Source: a virus. Taken from it: DNA of 44,868 nt. Within the stretch, counting starts at the first letter, position 1; each line of letters starts with the position of its first letter. The notes beneath the pieces were generated by a model. The model was not told the DNA's origin. It worked only from the letters and a program-made list of their open reading frames with translations, and ran no database searches. Both the position numbers and the translations under genes were made by a program. The stretch is from the IMG/VR virus record IMGVR_UViG_3300042562_000491, positions 1-44,868 of that record; one strand, 5' to 3'. This document shows, piece by piece, positions 29,729 to 34,824 of this stretch.

Positions 29729-30481
29729 TTATGATGTGATTAATAATTTTGCTCTTTTCTGATGCCCTAGTCCGTGGTCAATAATGACAATGTTCTTAGC
29801 TTTTATTGATGTGCCGGAACATAGGCAACAGTTTGTACAAGTAGTCTTTTGACCGGACTCCTTTGATGCCGGACAACTAATCTCACCTTGCAATGGTGCA
29901 TTGTAGCCTATCTGCACTCTGAAATAACGCATTCCCATAGCTAGTGCAGTCTGCTGCTCCCATATGTCATCTACTGATGCCATCACTAGCTTTGACCATT
30001 CCATATTGAAGTTGCTATCTCTCCACCTATGTGTATAGCCGGTCCGACGTTTGCATACACTAGCTAGTTCTTCGAATATCTCAATTGGAGCTACACAAGG
30101 GTCACCATATGTGCCGAATCTGATATTTTTACCTTTCACTAGGTCCTTTGCTTCATCCATAGTTATCCTAGGATAGTTTCCCTTTAGAAAACTTTTGTAT
30201 ACCATATTCACTCCTTGACCGACATTGACATAGCATCTTGCTTCACCATTGTCCTTTGCTAGTAATGGTCTATGCTTACAATCTCCGCAGATTGACTCAT
30301 CACCACCATTCTTCAACGCATCAATAGGATGCATATCAGTTCGGATAATATATGTTTGGACCATTGCTCCTGTCTTGGTGTTAGCACTACCTTGCGACAG
30401 TCCTACCATAATTACTGCAATCGGTTTGCCATCGTAAAGGGAAGGACCTTCCCAAATTACTGCACCATTAATTTTTACCAT
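29729..30481 (-). CDS. Conserved phage protein with Cys clusters (250 aa)
   Basis: The protein contains CGDCKHRP (residues about 60-67), a Cys at RCYVNVGQG, DPC in the middle, and a C-terminal cluster CPASKESGQKTTCTNCCLC. The Cys spacing suggests metal or iron-sulphur binding. The fold with the 'RFGTYGDP' strand-turn and the last Cys cluster recalls a group of uncharacterised phage proteins, and I do not know their function. The gene begins 19 to 23 bases after the hammerhead cleavage site at 30504/30505, so the ribozyme would define the 5' end of its mRNA. Confidence 0.7.
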   Translation of the reverse strand: MVKINGAVIWEGPSLYDGKPIAVIMVGLSQGSANTKTGAMVQTYIIRTDMHPIDALKNGGDESICGDCKHRPLLAKDNGEARCYVNVGQGVNMVYKSFLKGNYPRITMDEAKDLVKGKNIRFGTYGDPCVAPIEIFEELASVCKRRTGYTHRWRDSNFNMEWSKLVMASVDDIWEQQTALAMGMRYFRVQIGYNAPLQGEISCPASKESGQKTTCTNCCLCSGTSIKAKNIVIIDHGLGHQKRAKLLITS

Positions 30482-30498
30482 AGTTGTTTAAGTTTAGT

Positions 30499-30552
30499 AG
30501 TTAAGACCGGAATTGCTTCCGGTTTCGGACATCTAGTCCTCATCAGTTAACC
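30499..30552 (-). ncRNA. Hammerhead ribozyme (type I), copy 2
   Basis: All core elements are present on the - strand. The CTGATGA core is at 30546-30540. Stem II is GGAC/GTCC (30539-30536 and 30530-30527) with loop TAGAT. GAAA is at 30526-30523. Stem III is CCGGAA/TTCCGG (30522-30517 and 30512-30507) with a GCAA tetraloop. The cleavage triplet is GTC (30507-30505). Stem I pairs GTTAA (30551-30547) with TTAAC (30504-30500), with one more G-T pair. Cleavage would fall between 30505 and 30504. The flanks open at stem I (type I). The TGA stop of the upstream gene is inside the core. Every invariant base of the family is present. Confidence 0.9.
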
Positions 30553-30740
30553 TTGTAGAACTCATCAACATTGTATCCGGTTAGCTTAGCGCATAGCTCA
30601 ACAATGCAGTTGCGCTCATCCTTGTATTGGTCTTCCATCCACTTATCATCCCCAAATATTGGTATTAGACAGTCTATCTTGCGGACTCTTTCTTGCATTG
30701 AGTCTAGTAGTAATAATTTCTCTCTGAATGTGATTTCCAT
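30543..30740 (-). CDS. Small hypothetical early protein (65 aa)
   Basis: This is a helical, charged protein (MEITFREKLLLLDSMQERV, later IVELCAKLTGYNVDEFYKV). The family is not recognised. Its stop codon TGA (30545-30543) lies within the CTGATGA core of hammerhead copy 2, so a terminating ribosome would sit on the ribozyme. It begins 5 bases after the end of the upstream gene. Confidence 0.65.
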   Translation of the reverse strand: MEITFREKLLLLDSMQERVRKIDCLIPIFGDDKWMEDQYKDERNCIVELCAKLTGYNVDEFYKVN

Positions 30741-30745
30741 ATATA

Positions 30746-31057
30746 TTAGTTTTTAGTTGCTGATTTAAATGCTTTGATTATTACGTTTAGTGTATGCATT
30801 AGGTCCGCTCTTCCCATTTCATCGAACATATCTACCTTGCTTACATTGTACCTTTGCTGACCAATGTAATCATACTGACTACTACCGCCATAGATGGTAA
30901 CAAACTGATTCTTAACTACAATTTTTTCGACATTCACATAGTGAGGGAATGTCCCTCCATCGTATGTGTATGGAATCTCTTCTGACTCAGCTACCATAGG
31001 TAACATCTCGTTAATTACTGCGATTTTTCGCTCGATTGCAATTGGAAACTTTTTCAT
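30746..31057 (-). CDS. Hypothetical early protein (103 aa)
   Basis: The family is not recognised. The protein has a helix (IAVINEMLPMVAESEEIP), a strand-rich middle (FPHYVNVEKIVVKNQFVTIY, SQYDYIGQQRYN) and a C-terminal helix (LMHTLNVIIKAFK). Its leader begins at the predicted cleavage point of hammerhead copy 1 (31079), 22 bases before the ATG, and contains TTTAATTTTAGTG (+ strand reading), also seen before the next upstream gene. Confidence 0.65.
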   Translation of the reverse strand: MKKFPIAIERKIAVINEMLPMVAESEEIPYTYDGGTFPHYVNVEKIVVKNQFVTIYGGSSQYDYIGQQRYNVSKVDMFDEMGRADLMHTLNVIIKAFKSATKN

Positions 31058-31073
31058 TGTGTTTAATTTTAGT

Positions 31074-31125
31074 GGTTAATACCGGCTTTTGCCGGTTTCG
31101 GATACTTAATCCTCATCAGTTAACC
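31074..31125 (-). ncRNA. Hammerhead ribozyme (type I), copy 1
   Basis: On the - strand, stem I GGTTAA (31125-31120) is followed by the CTGATGA core (31119-31113). Stem II is GGAT/ATCC (31112-31109 and 31103-31100) with loop TAAGT. GAAA is at 31099-31096. Stem III is CCGGC/GCCGG (31095-31091 and 31086-31082) with loop AAAA. The cleavage triplet is GTA (31082-31080), and the closing stem I strand is TTAACC (31079-31074). All core bases match the family and all three stems are perfectly paired. Cleavage is predicted between 31080 and 31079. Stem II and stem III differ in sequence from copy 2 but keep pairing, which supports function. It lies between two early genes. Confidence 0.92.
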
Positions 31126-31376
31126 TACCTAGTGAACCAAGTATGTGATTCTAGTTGTAATTCATTTGGTTCAACTAGATTCCATCCAAATGGACCATCT
31201 GCCCATTCTACCTTGTCCTCTTCCCACTTATACACGTCATCTATACTACTAAATTCACATCCACTTGTTGAATGTCCACCATCACAATCGCTACTCCAAG
31301 AATTGATATATATTTTACCATACTTGATCAACTGCTTTAGCATTTCGTTTTCTGTTTTTAATTGCTGAATAGTCAT
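31125..31376 (-). CDS. Hypothetical early protein, first gene of the leftward operon (83 aa)
   Basis: I use ATG 31376 (MTIQQLK) because it has the same leader pattern as the next gene (TTTAATTTTAGTG on the + strand). An ATG at 31421 would add 15 residues. The N-terminal helix (QLKTENEMLKQLIKYGKIYI) has coiled-coil character. The C-terminal part is rich in Trp, Asp and Glu (WEEDKVEWADGPFGWNLVEP). No family is recognised. The TAG stop is at 31127-31125, at the edge of hammerhead copy 1. It follows a structured leader of about 400 bases. Confidence 0.6.
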   Translation of the reverse strand: MTIQQLKTENEMLKQLIKYGKIYINSWSSDCDGGHSTSGCEFSSIDDVYKWEEDKVEWADGPFGWNLVEPNELQLESHTWFTR

Positions 31377-31786
31377 AATTTTTAATTTTAGTGTTATTAA
31401 TATAATCCTATCTATCTGCATTTACACGGGCTTTAGACCGTCAGTGGCTGCATTAATAGTGACACATTGATGTCCTCAGGAACACGCCTATCATCCTTTC
31501 GGAGTCTGCGTCAATGTGGCTACTTGTTAATTATCATCAATTGGTATAGTGGGAATTGACTATGCAGTTGTTTCAACTTGGTCAATCGTTTGGTGGGTTA
31601 TCCTGTGCATTGCTCTAGAGTGTTACCTGTGTACAGGTAGTGCATTTCTCTTAGGAGTGTAGGTAGTGCCGTTATTCCATTATAAGCCCGATGTAGGCTA
31701 TTCTGATATTAACTTTCACTTCAATATGTCAAGGAGCAAGGATTAGCTATCGCTGAATCCGAGTGCAATATCGGTCTAATACTATT
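31377..31786 (-). ncRNA. Candidate structured leader RNA of the early operon
   Basis: About 410 bases contain no plausible gene but several good hairpins: CACATTGA/TCAATGTG (31463-31470, 31511-31518); ATTGAC/GTCAAT (31555-31560, 31581-31586) enclosing AGTTG/CAACT (31566-31570, 31574-31578); TACCTG/CAGGTA with a 4-base loop (31624-31639); and ATTAG/CTAAT (31742-31746, 31776-31780) enclosing CCGA/TCGG. A TAAATTTG box on the - strand (31793-31800) would start a transcript through it into the early genes. The hairpins can form in either strand, so the strand rests on the promoter box. I could not match it to a known class. Confidence 0.4.
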
Positions 31787-31896: not shown

Positions 31897-31980
31897 ATGG
31901 CAGTTGCAAAGGGAATGGTCCGGAGGGATACCCTACTAGATTGGTGGACTAATAGATATCCTACTAAGTTGATGGACTAA
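31897..31980 (+). CDS. Possible 27-aa peptide with a strong Shine-Dalgarno
   Basis: An AGGAGG sequence (31887-31892) lies 4 bases before ATG 31897, which is exceptional in this genome. The product begins MAVAKGMVRRDTLLDWWTNR and runs into the first two units of the palindrome array before stopping at 31980. Nothing else supports it, and the repeat-derived tail argues that the match could be chance. Confidence 0.25.
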   Translation: MAVAKGMVRRDTLLDWWTNRYPTKLMD

Positions 31981-32213
31981 GCTTACTCCACTAGATTAGT
32001 AGACTAGTCATTACCCTACTAAATTGGTAGACTATATCAGTCCACTAGATCGATGGACTAATCATTACCCTACTAGATTAGTAGACTAATCATTACTCTA
32101 CCAATGTGATGGAGTAACCGGACTAATACCCTACCAAGCTAGTGGACTAACCAATGGACAGTCCACCAAGATGGTAGACTAACCGAGCATCAGTCCACCA
32201 AGCTAGTGGACTA
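31930..32213. repeat. Array of ten 22-bp imperfect palindromes
   Basis: Ten units of exactly 22 bp start at 31930, 31958, 31985, 32013, 32039, 32067, 32095, 32128, 32160 and 32192. Nine end in GACTA (unit 7 ends in GAGTA). The ideal arms are AGTCCAC and GTGGACT around a 7-8 base centre such as TAGATTA or CAAGCTA. Arms change together in several units (for example ACTC with GAGT in unit 7). Linkers are 4-6 bases in the first seven units and 10-11 bases afterwards, giving periods near 28 and 32. The + and - strands would both form hairpins. It could be an operator/iteron array or a hairpin-rich RNA. Confidence 0.85.
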
Positions 32214-32358
32214 TGCCGGCGGAGGGAAATCGCCAAAAAATCCGGACGGGGCAAACTAATTGCACCCCCACCCCTTTGTTTAAATTTGACTTCCGGATCA
32301 CGGGTCGCTGCGTCAACCCGCTATACTACCCAACTACTACTACTATCTAAAAAAGTTT
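32214..32358. other. GC-rich intergenic segment with hairpins
   Basis: This stretch holds GGCG/CGCC (about 32218-32234) and a bulged stem GGGGCAA/TTGCaCCCC (32248-32254, 32260-32268) followed by a C-rich run and CTTTG. A TCCGGA palindrome occurs twice (about 32241 and 32292). The stem plus T-containing tail might end a rightward array transcript, but the T-tract is weak. No gene is visible here. Confidence 0.35.
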
Positions 32359-33181: not shown

Positions 33182-33189
33182 TATATTTG
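33182..33189 (+). promoter_or_regulatory. groEL promoter box TATATTTG
   Basis: This is an exact TAnnTTTG match ending 18 bases before the ATG at 33208. It overlaps the alternative TTG start at 33187, which argues for the downstream ATG. No -33 TTG was seen. Confidence 0.6.
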
Positions 33190-33207
33190 TACCCTAAATC
33201 AAATCTA

Positions 33208-34824
33208 ATGGTAGAAACAACAGGAATTGGGTACTCACCCAAAGATTTACAATTTGGATCGGACGGAAGGAAGAAACTGATCAGTGGAGTTGTCAAGATG
33301 TCAAGGGCAGTAAAGAGCACACTTGGACCCGGAGGCAACACAGTACTGATAGAGTCACCACACCACACACACGGAATTACAGTAACTAAGGACGGGGTAA
33401 CGGTAGCTAAGGCAATTGACCTAATAGACCCATCGGAGAACCTTGCGGTTCGGATGATGAAGGAGGCAGCAGATAGAACGGCTACTGCAGCAGGTGATGG
33501 TACTACTACGGCTATTGTGCTGACTGAGGCATTGGTGTTGGGAGGACTAGAGCATATCAAAGATGATATGAATCGGACGGAGGTGTTGAGGCAGATGGTT
33601 GACATTAGTAATAAAGTGGTTGACAAGTTGAGAAGGAAAGCAAAGAAGGTTAGTAGTTCAATGCTGCTTGATGTGGCTAGTATCTCATCCAACAATGACA
33701 GAGAGATTGGTAGAATCATCTCAGAGGTGTATAAGGACGTGGGTAAGACGGGTATCGTCACAGTGGAGAGGAGTCAGACAGCAGACACATATGCAGAGAC
33801 CACAAAGGGTCTTAAAATTGATCGTGGGTATTTAAGCTCACTATTTATCAATGACCAAAAAAAGGACGAGTGTGTGTTTGAGGATGTGATGGTGTTGGTA
33901 GCTGACATTGAGATAGCTAATATATTGCAGATTGAGAACGTATTGAAGCCAATCATTAGTGAGGGGAAGAAGCTCTTGATCATTGCACCTTGTAATGTAA
34001 ACGTGGTAAACACACTTGCAGCGAATGTGATGAAGGGACACTTAAAGGTAGTCGCTGTTCCTCCGCCAAACTTTGGATACAAGCAGCACGAGCTGATGCA
34101 CGACATTGCGGTTAGTGTTGGAGCAACTTATTATAGCGAGAAGACCGGAGATGACTTGAGCCACATAAATTTTGGTGACTTGGGTCACGCAGCTAAGGTG
34201 ATCGTTGGTAAAGATAAGACGGTGATCATAAGAAGTGCAGCGAAGTCTGATGAGAAGTTGGTAGAGGAGAGGGTTGCTCAGTTGTGGGACGGACACAAGG
34301 CAACAGCAAAGAAGGGTGAGAAAGACTTCTTTCTTGAGAGGATAGCTTCACTTACAGGTGGTATTGGTGTAATATTTGTAGGTGGTCAAACTGACTTAGA
34401 GCAAAAAGAGTTGTATGACAGGGTTGATGACGCTGTTTGTGCAGTTCGTTCAGCACTTGAGGAAGGGATTCTGCCGGGAGCAGGTAAGGCATTGTTTGAG
34501 GAGAGTTTGTTGATAGGCACTGAGAGTCAGAGTGGTGAGCAATCTGCTGCAATTAAAATTGTAAGTCAGGCGTTACAAGTCCCTCTTGTTCAGATACTTG
34601 CAAATGCAGGACTAAAGATTGAGGACATATATAAGGGTGAGGTAGCAATGGGCAGTGGGTATAATTTGAAGACAGGCAAGATGGGTGACTTGGTGCAGAT
34701 GGGTGTCATTGACCCGTTAAAAGTAACTAGATGTGCATTACAAAATGCTGTCAGTGTTGCAAATACCATACTTTCAACCAATGCAATCATCACAATGGCA
34801 CGTACTTATGAGCAATCACAATAA
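33208..34824 (+). CDS. groEL: GroEL-type chaperonin (538 aa)
   Basis: This is a full-length group I chaperonin. TLGPGGNTV (residues 38-46) corresponds to the TLGPKGRNV nucleotide loop. TKDGVTVAK (60-68) and GDGTTTAIVL (96-105, Asp97 equivalent to E. coli Asp87) form the ATP site. The C-terminal equatorial part has RVDDAVCAVRSALEEGILPG, with the catalytic Asp398 equivalent. The C-terminus lacks the Gly-Gly-Met tail. I chose ATG 33208. A TTG at 33187 would add seven residues and overlaps the promoter box. It folds proteins in the cytoplasm in a ring with a GroES partner, and a GroES-like gene lies 0.8 kb downstream. The sequence is divergent from bacterial GroEL, which fits long phage residence. 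Confidence 0.96.
   Translation: MVETTGIGYSPKDLQFGSDGRKKLISGVVKMSRAVKSTLGPGGNTVLIESPHHTHGITVTKDGVTVAKAIDLIDPSENLAVRMMKEAADRTATAAGDGTTTAIVLTEALVLGGLEHIKDDMNRTEVLRQMVDISNKVVDKLRRKAKKVSSSMLLDVASISSNNDREIGRIISEVYKDVGKTGIVTVERSQTADTYAETTKGLKIDRGYLSSLFINDQKKDECVFEDVMVLVADIEIANILQIENVLKPIISEGKKLLIIAPCNVNVVNTLAANVMKGHLKVVAVPPPNFGYKQHELMHDIAVSVGATYYSEKTGDDLSHINFGDLGHAAKVIVGKDKTVIIRSAAKSDEKLVEERVAQLWDGHKATAKKGEKDFFLERIASLTGGIGVIFVGGQTDLEQKELYDRVDDAVCAVRSALEEGILPGAGKALFEESLLIGTESQSGEQSAAIKIVSQALQVPLVQILANAGLKIEDIYKGEVAMGSGYNLKTGKMGDLVQMGVIDPLKVTRCALQNAVSVANTILSTNAIITMARTYEQSQ

Follow-up and report, generated by a model that had tools for sequence, protein, structure and literature searches.

A compact type I hammerhead, here called HH1, was found on the minus strand of the window (the whole 44,868-nt stretch of viral DNA that was analyzed). 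HH1 probably acts in cis as a self-cleaving element that splits an early polycistronic mRNA at gene boundaries. It belongs to a phage-associated subfamily whose structure is conserved with covariation, which occupies gene junctions with a common geometry, and which often forms same-strand arrays. The features of the leftward operon around HH1 are, in order of transcription:

31408..31459, (-) strand: twister-P1 ribozyme (Rfam RF03160), sub-threshold match, ahead of the operon's first gene
31125..31376, (-) strand: gene A, 83 aa, between the twister and HH1; no PHROG match
31074..31125, (-) strand: HH1, compact type I hammerhead, from sequence, fold and an independent covariance model
30746..31057, (-) strand: gene B, 103 aa, first after the HH1 cut; leader 31079..31058, 22 nt
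30543..30740, (-) strand: gene C, 65 aa, ending ...KVN-stop within HH2
30499..30552, (-) strand: HH2, compact type I hammerhead with a GUC site, from sequence and model R1
29729..30481, (-) strand: gene D, 250 aa, phrog_2554 (E 3.8e-71), function unknown, 3′ of the HH2 cut; leader 30504..30482, 23 nt

Sequence and Structure of HH1

Read on the minus strand from 31125 to 31074, HH1 has the letters GGTTAA-CTGATGA-GGAT-TAAGT-ATCC-GAA-ACCGGC-AAAA-GCCGGT-A-TTAACC. Stem I (31125..31120 with 31079..31074) consists of 6 bp, GGUUAA/UUAACC, and the catalytic core is formed by CTGATGA (31119..31113) and GAA (31099..31097). Stem II, with 4 bp and the loop UAAGU, spans 31112..31100, and stem III (31096..31081) contains 5 bp plus the A15.1-U16.1 pair, or six pairs in all. 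The cleavage triplet is GUA, with A31080 as H17, and cleavage is predicted between 31080 and 31079. All positions of the hammerhead core (C3 U4 G5 A6 N7 G8 A9...G12 A13 A14, A15.1-U16.1, and H17) are present, and the three stems, with 6, 4, and 6 perfect pairs, adopt the type I topology in which stem I is open. The minimum free energy fold (-16.5 kcal/mol, z -3.4) coincides exactly with the hammerhead, and none of 200 shuffled sequences was as stable. A sequence-only reading of this DNA had proposed a complete type I hammerhead at 31074-31125, with three perfectly paired stems and a GTA triplet; the coordinates on the minus strand, the intact core, the pairing, the topology, and the GUA site were all borne out by sequence and fold. 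The assignment of HH1 as a type I hammerhead is supported by every sequence and structure criterion that could be applied.

A covariance model, R1, was constructed from 75 elements found in other phages, with this phage and its relatives left out. HH1 scored 67.8 bits (E 6e-15) and HH2 60.8 bits (E 4e-13; predicted cut between 30505 and 30504), versus only 12.4 bits for the third-best match within the window. These scores, together with leaders of 22 and 23 nt, place both copies in the compact subfamily. Chance matches were gauged with a finder that demanded the strict core, a NUH site, and three stems: neither the 200 Markov copies made of the window nor the 10 made of related loci (0.96 Mb) yielded any.

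Searches with Rfam gave a different outcome. No match was found anywhere in the window at gathering cut-offs, and under lax settings HH1 matched no hammerhead family, while HH2 matched RAGATH-1-hammerhead at 27.3 bits (cut-off 56.3). The gathering scores of Hammerhead_1, Hammerhead_3, and RAGATH-1-hammerhead were reached by neither copy. The miss reflects a shortcoming of the Rfam models themselves, as like elements that form arrays of as many as 9 fall below the cut-off too (best Hammerhead_1 score 28.3 versus 34); a common phage RNA thus escapes current Rfam cut-offs. The sequence-only reading had proposed a covariance-model search and had named a score below threshold as grounds for rejection; formally, Rfam gave such a score, whereas the dedicated model did not.

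Anatomy of the Compact Subfamily

HH1 lacks a classical loop I; its stem I is flanked by A31126 and A31073. Where stem I has 6 bp (103 elements), an A precedes and an A follows the stem in 102, whereas the next bases outward are A in just 58 and 73. Loops II of 5 nt, such as the UAAGU of HH1, begin and end with U in 83 of 83 cases. These regularities suggest that the two flanking A residues may contact loop II, in a tertiary interaction that would take the place of the loop I found in larger type I hammerheads. Fast cleavage at low magnesium requires contacts between loops I and II (PMC3088659, PMC6155905); in HH1, fast cleavage would depend on the flanking A residues reaching loop II. In the alignment of 75 elements, 11 of the 15 stem pairs vary on both sides, a count that is inflated because the members were selected by pairing; the count obtained with a pattern alone (70 of 88, below) is therefore preferred.

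Distribution

The search pattern TTAACTGATGAGN{8,20}GAAACC, which makes no demand on pairing, matched 93 stretches of viral contigs. All three stems pair fully in 70 of the 88 distinct viral matches, compared to 4 of 63 in cellular genomes, which indicates that the compact element is phage-borne. Most of the remaining 18 viral matches are hammerheads too, either mismatched or with a larger stem III, and the few cellular loci with fully paired stems may be phage contigs or prophages. Cellular genomes were accordingly rejected as the home of the element: among 64 pattern matches in GTDB contigs, true hammerheads were present in just 4 loci, so the others are attributed to chance. Further phage matches were discarded as well. 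Those in Streptomyces phages (H45-H70) have only a GAAACCCC hairpin in common, the one that was retrieved (Diane) is not a hammerhead, and neither is the match in a Paracoccus phage.

A search of 94 loci with R1 gave 156 matches. The subfamily is estimated to comprise about 150 copies, spread over about 85 viral loci, with up to 9 per phage. The element-bearing loci form 32 nucleotide clusters. Many loci have one copy only, and three phages hold arrays of 8, 9, and 8 copies, each inside approximately 3-5 kb. All copies share a single orientation in each of the 26 multi-copy loci. Compact hammerheads with an extra hairpin or domain inserted in stem III were observed at L034:333-413, L047:8204-8284, and L080:7513-7597; such an insertion could possibly be a sensor or a protein-binding module.

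The element is also present in cultured phages. R1 detected it in Flavobacterium phage vB_FspP_elemoB (51.2 bits) and in the Pelagibacter phages HTVC131P, Jormungand, HTVC019P, and HTVC022P (46-51 bits). The elemoB element lies between gp68 and gp69, and its stem I, GGCAAA/TTTGTC, differs from the search pattern. In the annotation, gp69 starts at a GTG (L165:4035) that falls inside this hammerhead; the in-frame ATG 28 nt past the cut is the more likely start. An unannotated type III hammerhead was also seen in elemoB, ahead of gp62 (L165:2187-2243). In the Pelagibacter phages (L162, L163, L164, and L167), the element is upstream of a MarR-like gene and an integrase, with no start codon at 22 nt.

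The Local Operon and Its Relatives

The upstream gene and the ribozyme adjoin or overlap at both hammerhead junctions of the window. The last base of the TAG stop of gene A (31127..31125) is the first base of HH1, and the TGA stop of gene C (30545..30543) falls inside the CUGAUGA core of HH2. Neither this overlap in HH2 nor the twister is mentioned in the sequence-only reading of HH1. The B/C junction has no ribozyme. The twister-P1 match scored 51.9 bits (E 7.2e-9 for the whole window) and fell short of the gathering score, 67.2; it lacks the optional P3-like hairpin, and the other aligned positions agree almost throughout. An alternative, longer start for gene A, the ATG at 31421, would sit within the twister. 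The flanking genes had been called early in the sequence-only reading, a label that can be kept as probable because replication and recombination genes share the leftward block. Leftward and rightward gene blocks are separated by a non-coding gap that contains about seven imperfect repeats of 25-33 nt (31919..32223), spaced at roughly 27-28 nt and with dyad symmetry; this array may serve as an origin or as a set of binding sites for a regulator. The phage also encodes a GroEL-like chaperonin on the plus strand (33187..34824; phrog_5725, E 1.8e-127).

No DNA similarity was found between the window and cultured phages. The twister-P1 ribozyme is also present in loci L070 and L083, and in L083 it differs by one substitution, though the leader downstream has diverged. 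Gene D of L083 is 87% identical, and a close homologue of gene B is encoded there. L083 keeps the twister and HH2, the genes upstream of HH2 differ, and HH1 is absent, indicating that ribozymes at given junctions are gained and lost. At the same junction, the HH2 of L083 has an altered loop II and stem III and a GUA site, with pairing retained.

Type III hammerheads were found near compact ones in L013, L038/L061, L045, L053, L081, L066, and elemoB (L165). A second hammerhead model, R2, also gives weak cross-matches to type I and was read only above 50 bits. A type III hammerhead or a twister comes first in the arrays of the window, L013, L038/L061, L045, L053, L081, and L165. A strict rule that one of these always comes first was rejected, as L066 has a type I copy upstream of its type III; arrays only tend toward this order. 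The type III element of L066 sits between type I copies. Twister-P1 and type III ribozymes cut near their own 5′ ends and would remain with the downstream message, whereas type I hammerheads cut near their own 3′ ends and would remain with the upstream message.

Geometry of the Gene Junctions

The placement of stop codons and AUGs played no part in the search pattern, and both proved regular. Of 115 elements, 108 have an AUG 13-35 nt beyond the cut that begins a frame of no fewer than 30 codons, compared with 17% of random same-strand sites; of 113, 110 have an upstream frame whose end falls within -30..+20 of the element, compared with 30% at random sites. The leader from the cut to the AUG has a median length of 22 nt (quartiles 20-25). 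HH1 has exactly this value, since the next ATG after the predicted cut is at 31057; the 22-base leader anticipated in the sequence-only reading thus holds. After the cut, the leaders would be mostly unpaired (median 74% unpaired). A Shine-Dalgarno-like motif is present in only 18 of 112, and the spacing is therefore not simply fixed by one mode of ribosome binding. Adjacent ribozymes are separated by irregular distances of approximately 100-1600 nt, and 21 of the 46 intervals between them contain one whole gene, end to end. A common downstream gene family was looked for and rejected: 88 downstream proteins gave matches to 18 different PHROGs, none of which was matched by more than 2 of them.

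Proposed Function and Alternatives

The reading that we consider probable is that HH1 folds during transcription and cuts after A31080. The message of gene B would be freed with a 5′-OH and a single-stranded 22-nt leader, while the upstream message, containing the twister remnant and gene A, would retain the stem II/III hairpins and a 2′,3′-cyclic phosphate at its 3′ end. Together, the twister, HH1, and HH2 would divide the 5′ part of the operon into three to four mRNAs, namely A, B+C, and D onward. The selected benefit of separate messages may lie in stability, timing, or dosage. Processing at the HH1 junction is evidently not essential, because genes B and C adjoin with no ribozyme between them and L083 has no HH1. 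Counting against mRNA splitting are the sub-threshold Rfam scores, the missing classical loop I, and the lack of a start codon at 22 nt in the Pelagibacter phages.

An active ribozyme might instead serve as an attenuator, whose cut exposes the messages to decay and thereby lowers or times expression. The anatomy would be the same, cutting would sever genes from the promoter-proximal message, and the presence of ribozymes differs among close relatives, as would be expected of a tuning device. However, destruction alone requires neither a translatable, largely unpaired leader of about 22 nt nor intact upstream stops, and attenuation is considered unlikely while still deserving some weight. It is improbable that the gene-boundary copies are short stretches of shared sequence, retained mainly because recombination there shuffles genes, and that their catalysis is incidental. 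The comparison of the window with L083, in which upstream genes differ while ribozyme and downstream gene are constant, fits such a role, as does the absence of a family common to the 88 downstream proteins; yet the stems change with pairing kept while the core and flanking A residues are fixed, and recombination would conserve sequence instead.

In retrozymes and satellite RNAs, 5′-OH and cyclic-phosphate ends are ligated into circles. Pairs of phage hammerheads could, by the same chemistry, excise segments that become circular RNAs, such as the approximately 575 nt with genes B and C that are flanked by the two copies here, and 26 loci have at least two copies. Against this, many loci have a single copy, spacing is irregular (~100-1600 nt), and no circles were found from other phage hammerheads when they were searched for (PMC3088659), so this role is judged quite improbable. 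That HH1 is a chance resemblance or a decayed, inactive relic would agree with its being uncalled by Rfam, but the lack of matches in shuffled sequence, the E value of 6e-15, the intact core bases, and its retention in many phages make this most improbable.

A more speculative proposal, which we regard as rather doubtful at present, is that splitting of the mRNA is gated by translation. Because the upstream stop is inside or against the ribozyme (the TGA within the CUGAUGA of HH2, the TAG touching HH1), a ribosome terminating on the upstream gene might sit over the core and block folding, and cutting would occur only when translation slackens. If true, ribozymes would punctuate genes genome-wide in a manner tied to ribosome traffic. 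Mitochondrial transcripts are punctuated by tRNAs in a similar way.

Comparison with Known Systems

Hammerheads in phages, and the idea that they split mRNAs, are already known, and a 2017 review listed their purpose as an open question (PMC6155905). The compact subfamily, its A/A flanks, fixed leader, and merged stop codons were undescribed in a literature search whose reach did not extend to key hammerhead papers; the subfamily and its fixed geometry provisionally appear new. The position of each cut and the length of each product can be predicted with single-base precision, and since the element is present in cultured Flavobacterium and Pelagibacter phages, the predictions are testable by infection and RNA end mapping.

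The compact elements share the core, three-stem junction, NUH site, and open stem I of type I hammerheads (RF00163 Hammerhead_1, clan CL00010), and differ from RF00163 in having a 6-bp stem I closed by A/A with no internal loop, and a 4-bp stem II with a UNNNU loop. RAGATH-1-hammerhead (RF03152) has a similarly short stem I and the CUGAUGAG...CGAAAC layout, and is the best Rfam match of both HH2 and the Pelagibacter phage elements (36.8 bits); its model, however, has an extra upstream hairpin and a one-pair stem II, and compact elements score far below 56.3. Theta ribozymes of gut phages (PMC10879173) are also small, self-cleaving, and involved in phage transcript processing, but have an HDV-like fold and adjoin tRNA 3′ ends. 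In haloviruses HF1/HF2, HHphage is located 13 nt ahead of the start codon of an early gene, a placement like that of HH1, and the 5′ end of a transcript was mapped to within 3 nt of the hammerhead site; it differs in belonging to an archaeal virus, in its core insertions, and in its single described copy (PMC3088659).

Further parallels are the clustered prophage hammerheads of Agrobacterium, Azorhizobium, and Clostridium scindens described by Perreault et al. in 2011, who proposed that such clusters split polycistronic RNA; cleavage of clustered phage arrays was observed both in vitro and within E. coli cells (PMC3088659). In both cases, several hammerheads flank single genes of one phage transcript. 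In contrast to those clusters, the elements described here form one sequence subfamily, mainly on virus contigs instead of prophages, with a leader fixed at about 22 nt, merged stop codons, and up to 9 copies. The fixed leader, merged stops, single orientation, and up to 9 copies make the mRNA-splitting idea concrete.
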